A stretch of 35,149 nucleotides of DNA from NCBI GenBank assembly GCA_029821755.1, contig JALGSV010000035.1:1-35149 (forward strand), read 5' to 3'. The DNA comes from Candidatus Zipacnadum vermilionense (GTDB lineage Bacteria; Armatimonadota; Zipacnadia; Zipacnadales; Zipacnadaceae). The position numbers were made by a program, and so were the translations under genes. This document shows, one piece after another, positions 49 through 3,164 of this stretch (positions within the stretch are counted from its first letter, which is position 1; each line of letters opens with the position of its first letter). The notes under the pieces were generated by a model that made no database searches, had not been told where the DNA came from, and was given only the letters and a program-made list of their open reading frames with translations.

Positions 49-372
49 CTAGCGCCAGCCGCCGCCACCGCCGCCACCGCCGCCGCCGTAGCCGCCGCGG
101 CCGCCGCCGCCGCCGCCACCACCGCGGTTGCCCTGCGGGCGGGCCTCGTTAACCGTCAACGCACGCCCCTCCCACTCCTTGCCGTTCAACTCGGCAATGG
201 CCTTCTGCGCCTCGGCCTCATCACCCATCTCGACAAAGCCGAAGCCACGCGACCGGCCGCTGTCCCGGTCCTGCATGACGATGGCGTCGTCGACGGTGCC
301 AAAAGCCTCAAACTCGGTTCGCAAGCTGCTGCTCGTACTCGAATACGGCAAGTTGCCTACATAGATACGCAT
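49..372 (-). CDS. RRM-domain glycine-rich RNA-binding protein
   Basis: This 107-residue protein has one RNA recognition motif and a Gly-rich tail. RNP2 (IYVGNL) lies at residues 3-8 and RNP1 (RGFGFVEM) near residue 42, with the aromatic residues that stack on RNA. After about residue 80 the chain is nearly all glycine with a few Arg and Tyr, ending GGWR. This is the layout of small bacterial Rbp proteins, often cold-responsive, that bind single-stranded RNA. An upstream in-frame start exists, but I chose the ATG at 372 because an AAGGAG site lies 9 nt before it and the RRM begins at once. The gene is monocistronic on the visible evidence. Its promoter lies near 517-544, giving a leader of about 140 nt. 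The family call is seen directly; the cold-response role is inference. Confidence 0.93.
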   Translation of the reverse strand: MRIYVGNLPYSSTSSSLRTEFEAFGTVDDAIVMQDRDSGRSRGFGFVEMGDEAEAQKAIAELNGKEWEGRALTVNEARPQGNRGGGGGGGGRGGYGGGGGGGGGGWR

Positions 373-516
373 ACAAACGGTCTCCTTCGCGTCTCTTTGG
401 ACGCGCACCAACTGGGATAACAGGGTTCCAACGAGAAGCTAAGGAGCAACCAGTCGAGGCATGAACCGGAGTCCTGCGAGCGAACCGCCGCCACTTTTCT
501 TCCATCCTGCATGGGC

Positions 517-636: not shown

Positions 637-873
637 CTAGTGCAGCAAGCTGTCCAGAGCCGCGGTGGCGGCGGTTACGGTGGCGCGAACGGACTCACCC
701 AGGCCCTGCCAGGCGGCGACAGTAGCTACGCCCATCACCCCTAGCAGCATGGCATACTCCATGCTAGAGGAGCCGTTTTGGTCACCGGCCCAGCGCCGCA
801 AGTGTGGCACTGGCAACCAGCGGAGAGTACCCCAGGACAGCCCGACAATGCCGCGAAAGAGACCAGAACCCAT
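637..873 (-). CDS. Flp-type pilin (third pilin of the locus)
   Basis: This 78-residue protein carries the Flp prepilin signature: G34, then SSSMEY with Glu at +5 and Tyr at +6 of the predicted mature chain, followed by a hydrophobic helix (AMLLGVMGVATVAAW). Prepilin peptidase would cut after G34 and leave a 44-residue mature pilin. The 34-residue leader is longer than the usual Flp leader. AGGAGGA lies 7 nt before the ATG at 873, which fixes the start. It is separated from the other pilin genes by about 450 nt and has its own structured leader (910-1048), so it is probably a separate transcription unit. No Tad ATPase, secretin or peptidase gene is present in the window. The product would be a fimbrial subunit assembled from the inner membrane. 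Confidence 0.82.
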   Translation of the reverse strand: MGSGLFRGIVGLSWGTLRWLPVPHLRRWAGDQNGSSSMEYAMLLGVMGVATVAAWQGLGESVRATVTAATAALDSLLH

Positions 874-909
874 TTGTTCTTCCTCCTGTCACTGGGCGCA
901 AGCGAAAAA

Positions 910-1048
910 GCCAGACAGGGTAATCACCCTTACACGGCCCTGCGCCTTGCGCTCCCCCCGTCCTTCAGGTGTCCCCCGACTTGCGGAGACAGGCCTAAGA
1001 CGATCCCCTCGCCAGGCACTTCCAGCCGCTTAGGTCATCCCGTCTGGC
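910..1048 (-). promoter_or_regulatory. structured 5' leader B, candidate riboswitch-like RNA before a pilin gene
   Basis: Read on the minus strand, a closing helix GCCAGAC...GTCTGGC (1048-1042 with 916-910) encloses about 125 nt and is followed at once by TTTTT. Inside are CGGCT/GGCCG near the base, an outer stem CGTC/GACG, an inner stem TGTCTCC/GGGGACA and a GC hairpin (GCGC-AAG-GCGC). The same plan occurs at 2544-2670 before another Flp pilin gene, with different bases in several stems. The element ends 37 nt before the ATG at 873. The closing helix plus U-run could act as an intrinsic terminator or as the P1 of a riboswitch. It does not fit the c-di-GMP-I or cobalamin consensus as I know them. 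Pairing is seen by eye; function is inferred. Confidence 0.6.
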
Positions 1049-1328
1049 TACAAGACCGGAACTGTAGGAGCTCCAGCCGGGTAGTAAAAGCAAAGGGTGG
1101 AGAGATCCCTCCCCACCCAACACTCACATGATACCGTACGGATAGCGATTGTCCAGGTGGTTGAACAACAATTGCCCATAACTTGACTGCGGACATAGCG
1201 ATAGGGGAATGGATTCTTAGGAAGAGGTCGGAGAGAGCAAACGGGGGTATGGGGACAGGGAAGCAAAGACGCTGGTTACAGGGGGCAGCGGCCCACGAGG
1301 AGTTAGCGCTAGTCGGCGGCAGCACCAG
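1049..1328. other. noncoding stretch between pilin units
   Basis: No convincing gene was found here. Open frames on the minus strand lack a ribosome binding site and show no recognisable domain. The stretch holds the candidate promoter at 1128-1155 and the hairpin at 1095-1118. With leader B it makes up most of the 455 nt between the two pilin transcription units. Confidence 0.5.
1128..1155 (-). promoter_or_regulatory. candidate promoter upstream of leader B
   Basis: On the minus strand TGGACA (1155-1150) and TATCAT (1133-1128) are 16 nt apart, each matching the sigma-70 consensus at five of six positions. Transcription would begin near 1121, about 70 nt before leader B. A GC-rich hairpin (GGGTGG...CCACCC, 1095-1118) lies between. 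This is a plausible but unproven promoter. Confidence 0.4.
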
Positions 1329-1640
1329 CTAGCGCCAGGTGGCCCAGGTAGCAGGGGAGGCGGGGCCTTCCGACGCCTGACCCACGGCCTCGGCTTGCGC
1401 ACCCACACCGGCGGTGAGGTCCTGGACCAGCGGTGCGGATGCGCAGGCGACCGTGACCACCACCACCGCCAGCACGATCGCATACTCGACGCTGGTGGTG
1501 CCCTTCGCGTCCTTCGACCACCGCTTGGCACGCCTCCCCAGGGCCGTCAGGGCCTCGGAGAAGGCCAGGCCCACCACGCTACCGACCGCCAAGGCGGTGA
1601 AGACAATGCCTATATACGTAAGAATCATGTCCCAACTCAT
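1329..1640 (-). CDS. Flp-type pilin with an extra N-terminal hydrophobic segment
   Basis: This 103-residue protein has the Flp motif G47/TTSVEY followed by a long hydrophobic helix (AIVLAVVVVTVACASA), so cleavage after G47 would release 56 residues. It is unusual that the 47-residue leader holds its own hydrophobic stretch (residues about 6-26, ILTYIGIVFTALAVGSVVG). The precursor may therefore cross the membrane twice, or may be a pseudopilin rather than the main subunit. The tail after residue 85 is Ala/Pro-rich. The gene follows the TadE-like gene by 68 nt with no structured leader, so it is probably co-transcribed from the first pilin gene. The ribosome binding site before the ATG at 1640 is weak; the ATG four codons later is an alternative start. 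Confidence 0.72.
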   Translation of the reverse strand: MSWDMILTYIGIVFTALAVGSVVGLAFSEALTALGRRAKRWSKDAKGTTSVEYAIVLAVVVVTVACASAPLVQDLTAGVGAQAEAVGQASEGPASPATWATWR

Positions 1641-1708
1641 CTCTTACTCAACCCCTTAACAGTCCTGGTGGCACATGAGGACGGGCTGTTGGGACGCTGG
1701 AGGCGCCG

Positions 1709-2224
1709 CTACTCGCGGGTGACTACTATGCTGCTCTGCAGGTGGACCGAGTTGGTGCCTGGCGTGGCCATAGACGCGAACATTGATCCGGTTACCAGGG
1801 AGTGCGGATAGGCGAGGGTGATCCGCACCTGAGCTCGGGAGGGGGCAACGTTCTCCACTTTGGCGTCCCGAGGGGGCGCATCGGTCAGGGGGGTCCAGGC
1901 ACTCCAGATGCCGTCGACGCAGGTGCGGTACGCTTGCTCGATGGTCAGTGCGCTGACGTTGAGGGTCGGGGCGGCGGCGCGGGCGACCTCGACGATTTCG
2001 GCGATGGTTGCGCCGACGGCCGCTGAGCGCGCGGCCTCGCGGCTGGCAGAGCCGACCACCAGGGAGTCCTTCACCACCAGGCCCATCTCGATGGTCCCCA
2101 GCAGGAGCAGGACCAGGAGGGGGGCGATGATCGCCATCTCCACGGTCAAGCTCCCCGCCGAAGCGCGGCGCCACCGCCGCTGCCGCCAATACACTCCTCC
2201 CAGTTCGTTCTTCACCGATATCAT
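1709..2224 (-). CDS. TadE-like pseudopilin
   Basis: This protein of about 170 residues has a short basic N-terminus, then GSLTVEMAIIAP followed by LLVLLLLGTIEMG, the TadE/TadG signature of one N-terminal transmembrane helix starting with a Glu a few residues after a Gly. The remaining 120 residues would lie outside the membrane, with one Cys near residue 101. TadE proteins are minor pseudopilins of Tad/Flp pilus systems. The ATG at 2224 directly abuts GAGGAG, which is too close for normal initiation. The GTG three codons later (2215) is 9 nt from the same site and may be the true start. The gene lies 31 nt after the first Flp gene and before the second, so an flp-tadE-flp operon is likely. 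Confidence 0.82.
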   Translation of the reverse strand: MISVKNELGGVYWRQRRWRRASAGSLTVEMAIIAPLLVLLLLGTIEMGLVVKDSLVVGSASREAARSAAVGATIAEIVEVARAAAPTLNVSALTIEQAYRTCVDGIWSAWTPLTDAPPRDAKVENVAPSRAQVRITLAYPHSLVTGSMFASMATPGTNSVHLQSSIVVTRE

Positions 2225-2255
2225 CTCCTCGTGGATCTGCCGGGAAAACGTTCTG

Positions 2256-2501
2256 CTAGCTCGGTGGCTGACTGATCGATACAGTCAGCGTCACGAGGGT
2301 CTCTCTCACTTTGGCCCCGAGCTCCACCCAGGCCCCCAGAGTGGCGACGACTACCAGGCTTAGGAGCAGAGCGTATTCGACCGAAGCGGTGCCTTGCTCG
2401 TCCTGTAGGGCCCAGCGCAGGCGGGCCAGAAAGGTGCCGTTCGTCCGCAGGGGGGCATCTGAGCGATCGGCGCTGACGGATTGTCGAAGTTCTGAATGCA
2501 T
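2256..2501 (-). CDS. Flp-type pilin (first pilin of the locus)
   Basis: This 81-residue precursor has the Flp cleavage motif G37/TASVEY, with Glu and Tyr at +5 and +6, followed by the hydrophobic run ALLLSLVVVATLGAW. The predicted mature chain is 44 residues. The 37-residue leader is polar and longer than typical. GAGGA lies about 7 nt before the ATG at 2501. It is the first gene of a probable flp-tadE-flp unit and is preceded by structured leader A (2544-2670), whose fold matches the leader of the separate pilin gene at 637-873. The mature chains of these two pilins have the same length. The product is expected to be a Tad-type fimbrial subunit. Confidence 0.83.
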   Translation of the reverse strand: MHSELRQSVSADRSDAPLRTNGTFLARLRWALQDEQGTASVEYALLLSLVVVATLGAWVELGAKVRETLVTLTVSISQPPS

Positions 2502-2543
2502 GGCGTTGTCCTCGCCTTCCTAGCGGGGCCGGAAAACAAAAAA

Positions 2544-2670
2544 GCCAGACAATATTCCAACGTATGCGGCTGAGCGCCCCCGGGGCGCTTGCCGTCTGTG
2601 TTTGTCTCCCCCCATTTTGGAGACAAGTTAGACGGTACTCTTCTGAAGCCGATACGTGGTTTTGTCTGGC
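2544..2670 (-). promoter_or_regulatory. structured 5' leader A, candidate riboswitch-like RNA before a pilin gene
   Basis: On the minus strand GCCAGAC (2670-2664) pairs with GTCTGGC (2550-2544), which is followed by TTTTTT. Inside, ACGTAT-CGGCT pairs with AGCCG-C-ATACGT, CCGTCT pairs with AGACGG, TGTCTCC pairs with GGAGACA, and AGCGCCC pairs with GGGCGCT. This is the same order of helices as leader B (910-1048). The element ends 43 nt before the ATG of the pilin gene at 2256-2501. Several equivalent stems differ in sequence but stay paired, as expected for a conserved RNA. No known riboswitch class was recognised. Confidence 0.65.
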
Positions 2671-3164
2671 TGTCGCACGGAAGCCGCTGATGGCTCCGGG
2701 CTGATTGGCCGGTTAGGGACTCACTGCTCCTTCGTATGTTGGTTGCGAACGGGGCACTTCAAGTCATGTGCCCACCGCGTGTATATCATTCTAATCGGGA
2801 CCGGTGAGCGGTACAATCCTCTTGAGCTAAATATGAGTATAAGCTTATCTATACTTTAGGGGACAATAAACAGCGCTTTGTCATGGAAGCGAGAGCGCAG
2901 GGCCGAGAGGGAGGTGTGCAGAGCCTGGACAGCCAATGTGGTTCTGTTAGGAGAGGGGGCGACAGGCGTCCTCGCCCATCGAGGAAGCGCATGAATACGC
3001 GGTTTCCGGCGCGGACCGGGAAGCCGGCGTCAGACGAAACGGGCTTCCGTAACAGAGCCAATATTGGGGCCGGAAGGGGGGAGGCGGGAGCGTCGTGCAA
3101 CTTTTCCCGCGGTCCGGTCTCTAACAAGGAGACACTCCCCAGTTTCTCGGAAAGGTTCCCTATC
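2671..3164. other. divergent intergenic region between pilin leader A and the DegT gene
   Basis: No gene is supported here. An open frame from 2883 runs into the DegT gene, but its first 94 codons look unlike the family and are low in recognisable content. The patch 2770-2870 is AT-rich against its surroundings and includes the palindrome ATAAGCTTAT (2839-2848) flanked by AGTATA and TATACT, a possible operator or plus-strand promoter region. The rest shows nothing I can name. Confidence 0.4.
2788..2816 (-). promoter_or_regulatory. weak candidate promoter upstream of leader A
   Basis: On the minus strand TTGTAC (2816-2811) and TAGAAT (2793-2788) are 17 nt apart in a locally AT-rich patch. The -10 is good and the -35 poor. 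It would give a leader of about 110 nt before leader A. Inference only. Confidence 0.3.

Follow-up and report, generated by a model that had tools for sequence, protein, structure and literature searches.

Ordinary intrinsic (Rho-independent) terminators have a short loop. The c-di-GMP-I riboswitch, i.e., GEMM (RF01051), controls genes for pili, membrane proteins and extracellular proteins. The HMP-PP riboswitch, i.e., the thiS motif, is an aptamer embedded in a terminator stem (PMC6478431). It forms a short, extended hairpin whose alternative state contains a pseudoknot, and 400 representatives are known. Its equilibrium fold is purely that of the terminator, and it works during transcription (PMC6478431).

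The leader RNA of Candidatus Zipacnadum vermilionense was compared with these systems. Like intrinsic terminators and attenuator leaders, it carries a GC-containing helix that runs directly into 4-6 U and precedes a gene, but this helix, P1, has its arms separated by 113-130 nt and encloses four further helices in place of a short loop. The target genes are similar to those of the c-di-GMP-I riboswitch, whereas the leader sequence did not match RF01051 at any threshold used. As in the HMP-PP riboswitch, the most stable fold is terminator-like, i.e., a strong stem and a U-run, with the putative sensing domain enclosed. Unlike that riboswitch, the leader is a multibranch domain of ~127-144 nt, has three copies and has no Rfam match. 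Given the HMP-PP precedent, a terminator-only equilibrium fold of the leader is compatible with sensing (PMC6478431). The leader appears to work like a terminator-embedded attenuator, with membership in none of the known families shown.

Copies A, B and C and their genes

The leader is an undescribed structured RNA in three copies, real but apparently restricted to one species. Two copies were located on the minus strand of the window, i.e., the whole stretch of 35,149 nt that was analysed. The structured domain of copy A lies at 2544..2670 (129 bits with covariance model R1), and that of copy B, with the same helix order, at 910..1048. On the minus strand both start with GCCAGAC and end with GTCTGGC, straight after which comes a T-run, i.e., TTTTTT at 2538..2543 in A, immediately 3' of the P1 3' arm and terminator-like, and TTTTT at 905..909 in B. 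The coordinates, helices and U-runs of the original prediction were all confirmed from the sequence for A (2670-2544) and B (1048-910), whereas its count of two copies was too low. Copy C is present on another contig of the same genome (G000:C1:86377-86525, i.e., L009:2378-2526), and was first met in a DNA search of the genome with A, at 66% identity over the whole element. All three copies share sequence and architecture, sense orientation, position and the closing helix with a U-run after it. The pattern GCCAGAC-N(100-130)-GTCTGGCTTTT has exactly three matches in the 4.39 Mb genome, i.e., A, B and C, and none in the reversed control. The P4 hairpin pattern TGTCTCC-N(4-16)-GGRGACA occurs three times in the window, where 0.02 occurrences were expected; two of these are A on both strands and one is B.

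The homology of A, B and C is secure. The covariance model of A and B only recovered C genome-wide (E=4.7e-7), and model R2 of A and C matched B out-of-sample (24 bits, E 3.3e-4 in 41 kb), although both tests are somewhat favourable because the helices of the seeds were brought into register by hand-trimming, mainly of loops and linkers. In the hand-trimmed alignment 94.5% of cells are paired, against 33-46% with the partners slid. Two-sided changes occur in only two pairs, one in P1 and one in P2. Most of the variation among the helices is G-U replacement, and RNAalifold assigned almost no covariation energy (-0.11) to the native alignment. The statement that the stems differ yet still pair thus holds for the pairing, but the changes are mostly one-sided, to G-U, and not compensatory, and covariation had been overstated. 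Judged by covariation, the conservation of structure is suggestive.

An Flp-type pilin gene lies behind A (2256..2501, minus strand), with its ATG 42 nt after P1. Its product showed a weak Pfam match (Flp_Fap, 17.4 bits), and tblastn matches were found to flp arrays of the same and related genomes (E to 5e-16). The Flp-like pilin gene behind B (637..873, minus strand) has its ATG 36 nt after P1; its product, without a Pfam match, resembles Flp1 with 47% over 48 aa (E 1.7e-7), and is likewise similar to flp arrays of this genome and its relatives. Copy C is oriented with a PEP-CTERM protein gene (Pfam, 27.9 bits) and lies ~131 nt before it. The predicted placement before Flp pilin genes is therefore right for A and B and wrong for C, and a tie to pili alone is too narrow. 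Since C precedes a gene unrelated to pilin, conservation of the leader does not depend on the neighbouring coding sequence.

Shine-Dalgarno-like sequence was found downstream of the leaders, near the start codons. Copy A is placed between divergent genes, i.e., flp on the minus strand and a DegT-family aminotransferase gene on the plus strand, and is therefore unlikely to form the 3' end of a minus-strand gene lying upstream. Named relatives of this aminotransferase point to a position of the genome near candidate division WS1 / Ca. Zipacnadia in the Armatimonadota. Among the ORFs listed to 50 aa, no convincing leader-peptide ORF was detected. Upstream of B, a promoter-like site, TGGACA-16-TATCAT, was recognized at 1128..1155 (minus strand) with 10/12 consensus matches, but it is weak because one such site was found against 0.7 expected. 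The interval between this site and the P0 hairpin of B holds GGGTGGGGAGGGATCTCTCCACCC, a strong hairpin of terminator-like form, with TTTGCTTTT after it (1095-1118, minus strand). The gene directly downstream of Flp2 (49-378, minus strand) encodes a glycine-rich RRM protein (RRM_1, 74 bits).

Predicted fold and the closing helix as a proposed terminator stem

From 5' to 3' the predicted order of elements is P0, P1, P2 with an internal loop, a junction segment, stacked P3-P4, P5, the 3' arms and the U-run. In C the junction segment is a small hairpin capped by GAAA. The helices of A were assigned as P1 GCCAGACAA/TTGTCTGGC, P2 CACGTATCGGCT/AGCCGCATACGTTGG, P3 CCGTCT/AGACGG, P4 TTGTCTCC/GGAGACAA and P5 AGCGCCC/GGGCGCT, and P1 of B as GCCAGACGG/CTGTCTGGC. 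The fold of A has an energy of -64.5 kcal/mol (z -5.45), equalled by 0 of 200 shuffles, and that of B -74.8 kcal/mol (z -2.6), equalled by 1 of 200. Copy C by itself was no more stable than its own shuffles (z -0.92).

The P0 hairpin, overlooked in the original prediction, is found upstream of the closing helix in all three copies. In A it is CGGAGCC..GGCTTCCG at 2678..2698 (minus strand), 7 nt before P1, a conserved alignment block that folds as a hairpin. In B it is GGCTGGAGCT/AGTTCCGGTC at 1054..1078 (minus strand), also an alignment block, in a stretch with z -3.45. The arms are GGAGCC..GGCTTCC in A, GGAGCT..AGTTCC in B and GGGGAGCC..GGCTTCCC in C. The P0 of C together with T6 (L009:2342-2371) resembles a complete intrinsic terminator placed immediately 5' of the P1 domain, and C may thus have a tandem pair of terminators.

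P1 consists of 9-10 bp followed by U6 in A, U5 in B and U4 in C, i.e., the stable stem and U-run of a terminator. Because each copy ends in this way, the leader is a plausible on/off control element, and the terminator-like end likely reflects attenuation. In the completed RNA the predicted pairing probability of P1 is 0.88-1.0. When the transcript was folded without the P1 3' arm, the 5' arm was predicted to be unpaired in A and mostly so in B.

Our proposal is that A, B and C are one cis-acting 5' leader that attenuates surface-protein genes, its closing helix being at the same time the stem of an intrinsic-type terminator, and we give this proposal about an even chance. The P1 5' arm would stay waiting while P2-P5 fold. 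The 3' arm, emerging just before the U-run, would then pair with it, and closure of P1 would stop transcription ahead of the pilin or PEP-CTERM gene. Delay or block of this closure would let the polymerase through. Possible blockers would be a ligand or protein on P2-P5, or the P0 5' strand paired with the P1 3' arm and U-run. That the leader is transcribed, terminates and is regulated in response to some trigger is what we infer from these features.

The last of these blockers was judged from pairing energies. The P0 5' strand can be matched to the P1 3' arm and U-run as GGAGCCA/TGGCTTT in A, with 6 pairs in B and 9 in C. This pairing lies 14-17 kcal/mol above the minimum, and its combined p is ~0.01, uncorrected for the many helices examined; it is a possible antiterminator and a candidate only. 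A strand exchange between the P1 and P4 5' arms, drawn from the repeated GTCT/AGAC arms, was 18-28 kcal/mol worse and was rejected as energetically untenable. For the U-run paired with the purine-rich stretch that follows P2, the combined p was 0.05, which was unconvincing. No antiterminator that could compete in energy was detected, and the leader therefore shows no evident switch.

Distribution of the leader

The failure to fit the leader to known aptamers was borne out by Rfam 15, in which nothing relevant matched it at gathering or relaxed thresholds (E up to 10). Covariance models run on the other 40 genomes of the order and 290 genomes of the phylum returned only A, B and C, in a search whose first-look filter may miss distant copies. 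Homologues with compensatory changes, on which the original prediction had staked the element, were thus not found in these related genomes. A weak model match in G010 was discarded as chance, being inside an aminotransferase gene and without P1. The DNA search of 60 relatives gave chance matches only, besides C in the leader's own genome. Eight stretches of viral contigs contain the P1 pattern and none scores as leader RNA, and no copies were found in plasmids and phages. In G001, G003, G006 and G009 the leader is absent from the orthologues of C's gene, and upstream of several orthologues a sigma-70-like promoter was read by eye.

The original prediction had proposed a look for more copies before flp/tad genes, and the models detected no related leader at the other flp loci of the same genome and its relatives. 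A generic scan of these loci for a closing helix plus T-run yielded about as many matches as chance would give. At G000:C76:38438-40167 (L077), an array of five or more flp pilin genes was without leader. The hairpin CTCC..GGGGGGAG was rejected as a family signature, since at ~2-3x over the reversed control in the genus it is far too common.

Two other elements were recognized in the genus. A different intercistronic hairpin is conserved in three genomes downstream of the last flp gene, ahead of the gene that follows, which is prepilin-peptidase-like by sequence. It is located at L077:1330-1425 (-), L081:1498-1600 (-) and L080:300-400 (+), with an apical CTCC/CGGGGGGAG and a downstream run of GGGGGCGGGGAGG type, and those of L077 and L081 have no Rfam match. 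A nearly identical motif of CTCCTKGCAGGAGAGGGGGGAG type recurs in all three genus genomes (G000:C16:18376-18397, G000:C16:24509-24530, G000:C12:30283-30304, G001:C179:15050-15071 and G002:C335:7108-7129), and is possibly another repeated leader or binding element.

Alternative explanations and meaning of the leader

The original prediction had suggested a riboswitch or attenuator class. A structured family with no Rfam match and an attenuation-like end was retained, but not a riboswitch in the usual sense. Ligand sensing had been argued from second messengers; no similarity to an RNA of known ligand and no strong alternative fold were found, and the link to c-di-GMP is unsupported. No c-di-GMP-I riboswitch was detected in this genome or 14 relatives, by a search whose sensitivity is uncertain because a single sub-threshold signal was all that came from the control genomes. 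A new ligand-binding class for surface structures, with P2-P5 as aptamer and P1 with its U-run as terminator, would agree with the compact multibranch fold, the terminator-like end and the several copies before functionally related extracellular-protein genes. It is unlikely, however, as conservation in one species cannot define a binding core and neither Rfam similarity nor a plausible alternative fold is at hand. Quite unlikely is the fuller version, in which a novel riboswitch class, restricted to this lineage, would jointly control pili and exosortase-sorted surface proteins of uncultured Armatimonadota by closure of a multibranch aptamer with P1 as terminator stem. The strong closure of P1 in all predictions, with no switch partner of comparable energy, would also suit an RNA that does not switch, i.e., a trans-acting stable small RNA that ends at the U-run, or a constitutive element for partial termination or stability. 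This is rather improbable, because the consistent site near start codons, with Shine-Dalgarno-like sequence downstream, favours a role in cis.

The inverted ends, the confinement of the copies to one species and the orthologues of C's gene that lack the element in related genomes would be expected of a MITE-like mobile or repeat element with imperfect terminal inverted repeats, GCCAGAC/GTCTGGC, that landed by chance before three genes, its fold being a by-product. By inspection, however, no target-site duplications flank A, B or C, and the conserved sequence reaches beyond the ends into P0 and the U-run. All three copies are also in sense orientation less than 150 nt from the start of a secreted or surface protein, and the helices are kept despite the divergence between A and C. 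A mobile origin is therefore decidedly improbable. Glycine-rich RRM proteins are common general RNA binders, and an attenuator controlled by an RNA-binding protein, possibly the one encoded downstream of Flp2, was considered in view of that gene's RRM_1 match and its position adjoining Flp2. With C on a different contig, this is highly improbable. The attenuating leader with P1 as terminator stem is the preferred reading.

To our knowledge, RNA regulation has hardly been studied in Armatimonadota. At present, the leader is a three-member RNA family that is undescribed and limited to one species, and its use is chiefly as a lead for metagenome-wide searches. If the proposal is true, it would be another sensor built into its own terminator. 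One RNA leader would then have been copied to at least three surface-structure genes, and the transcription of pili and secreted proteins would be under shared control.
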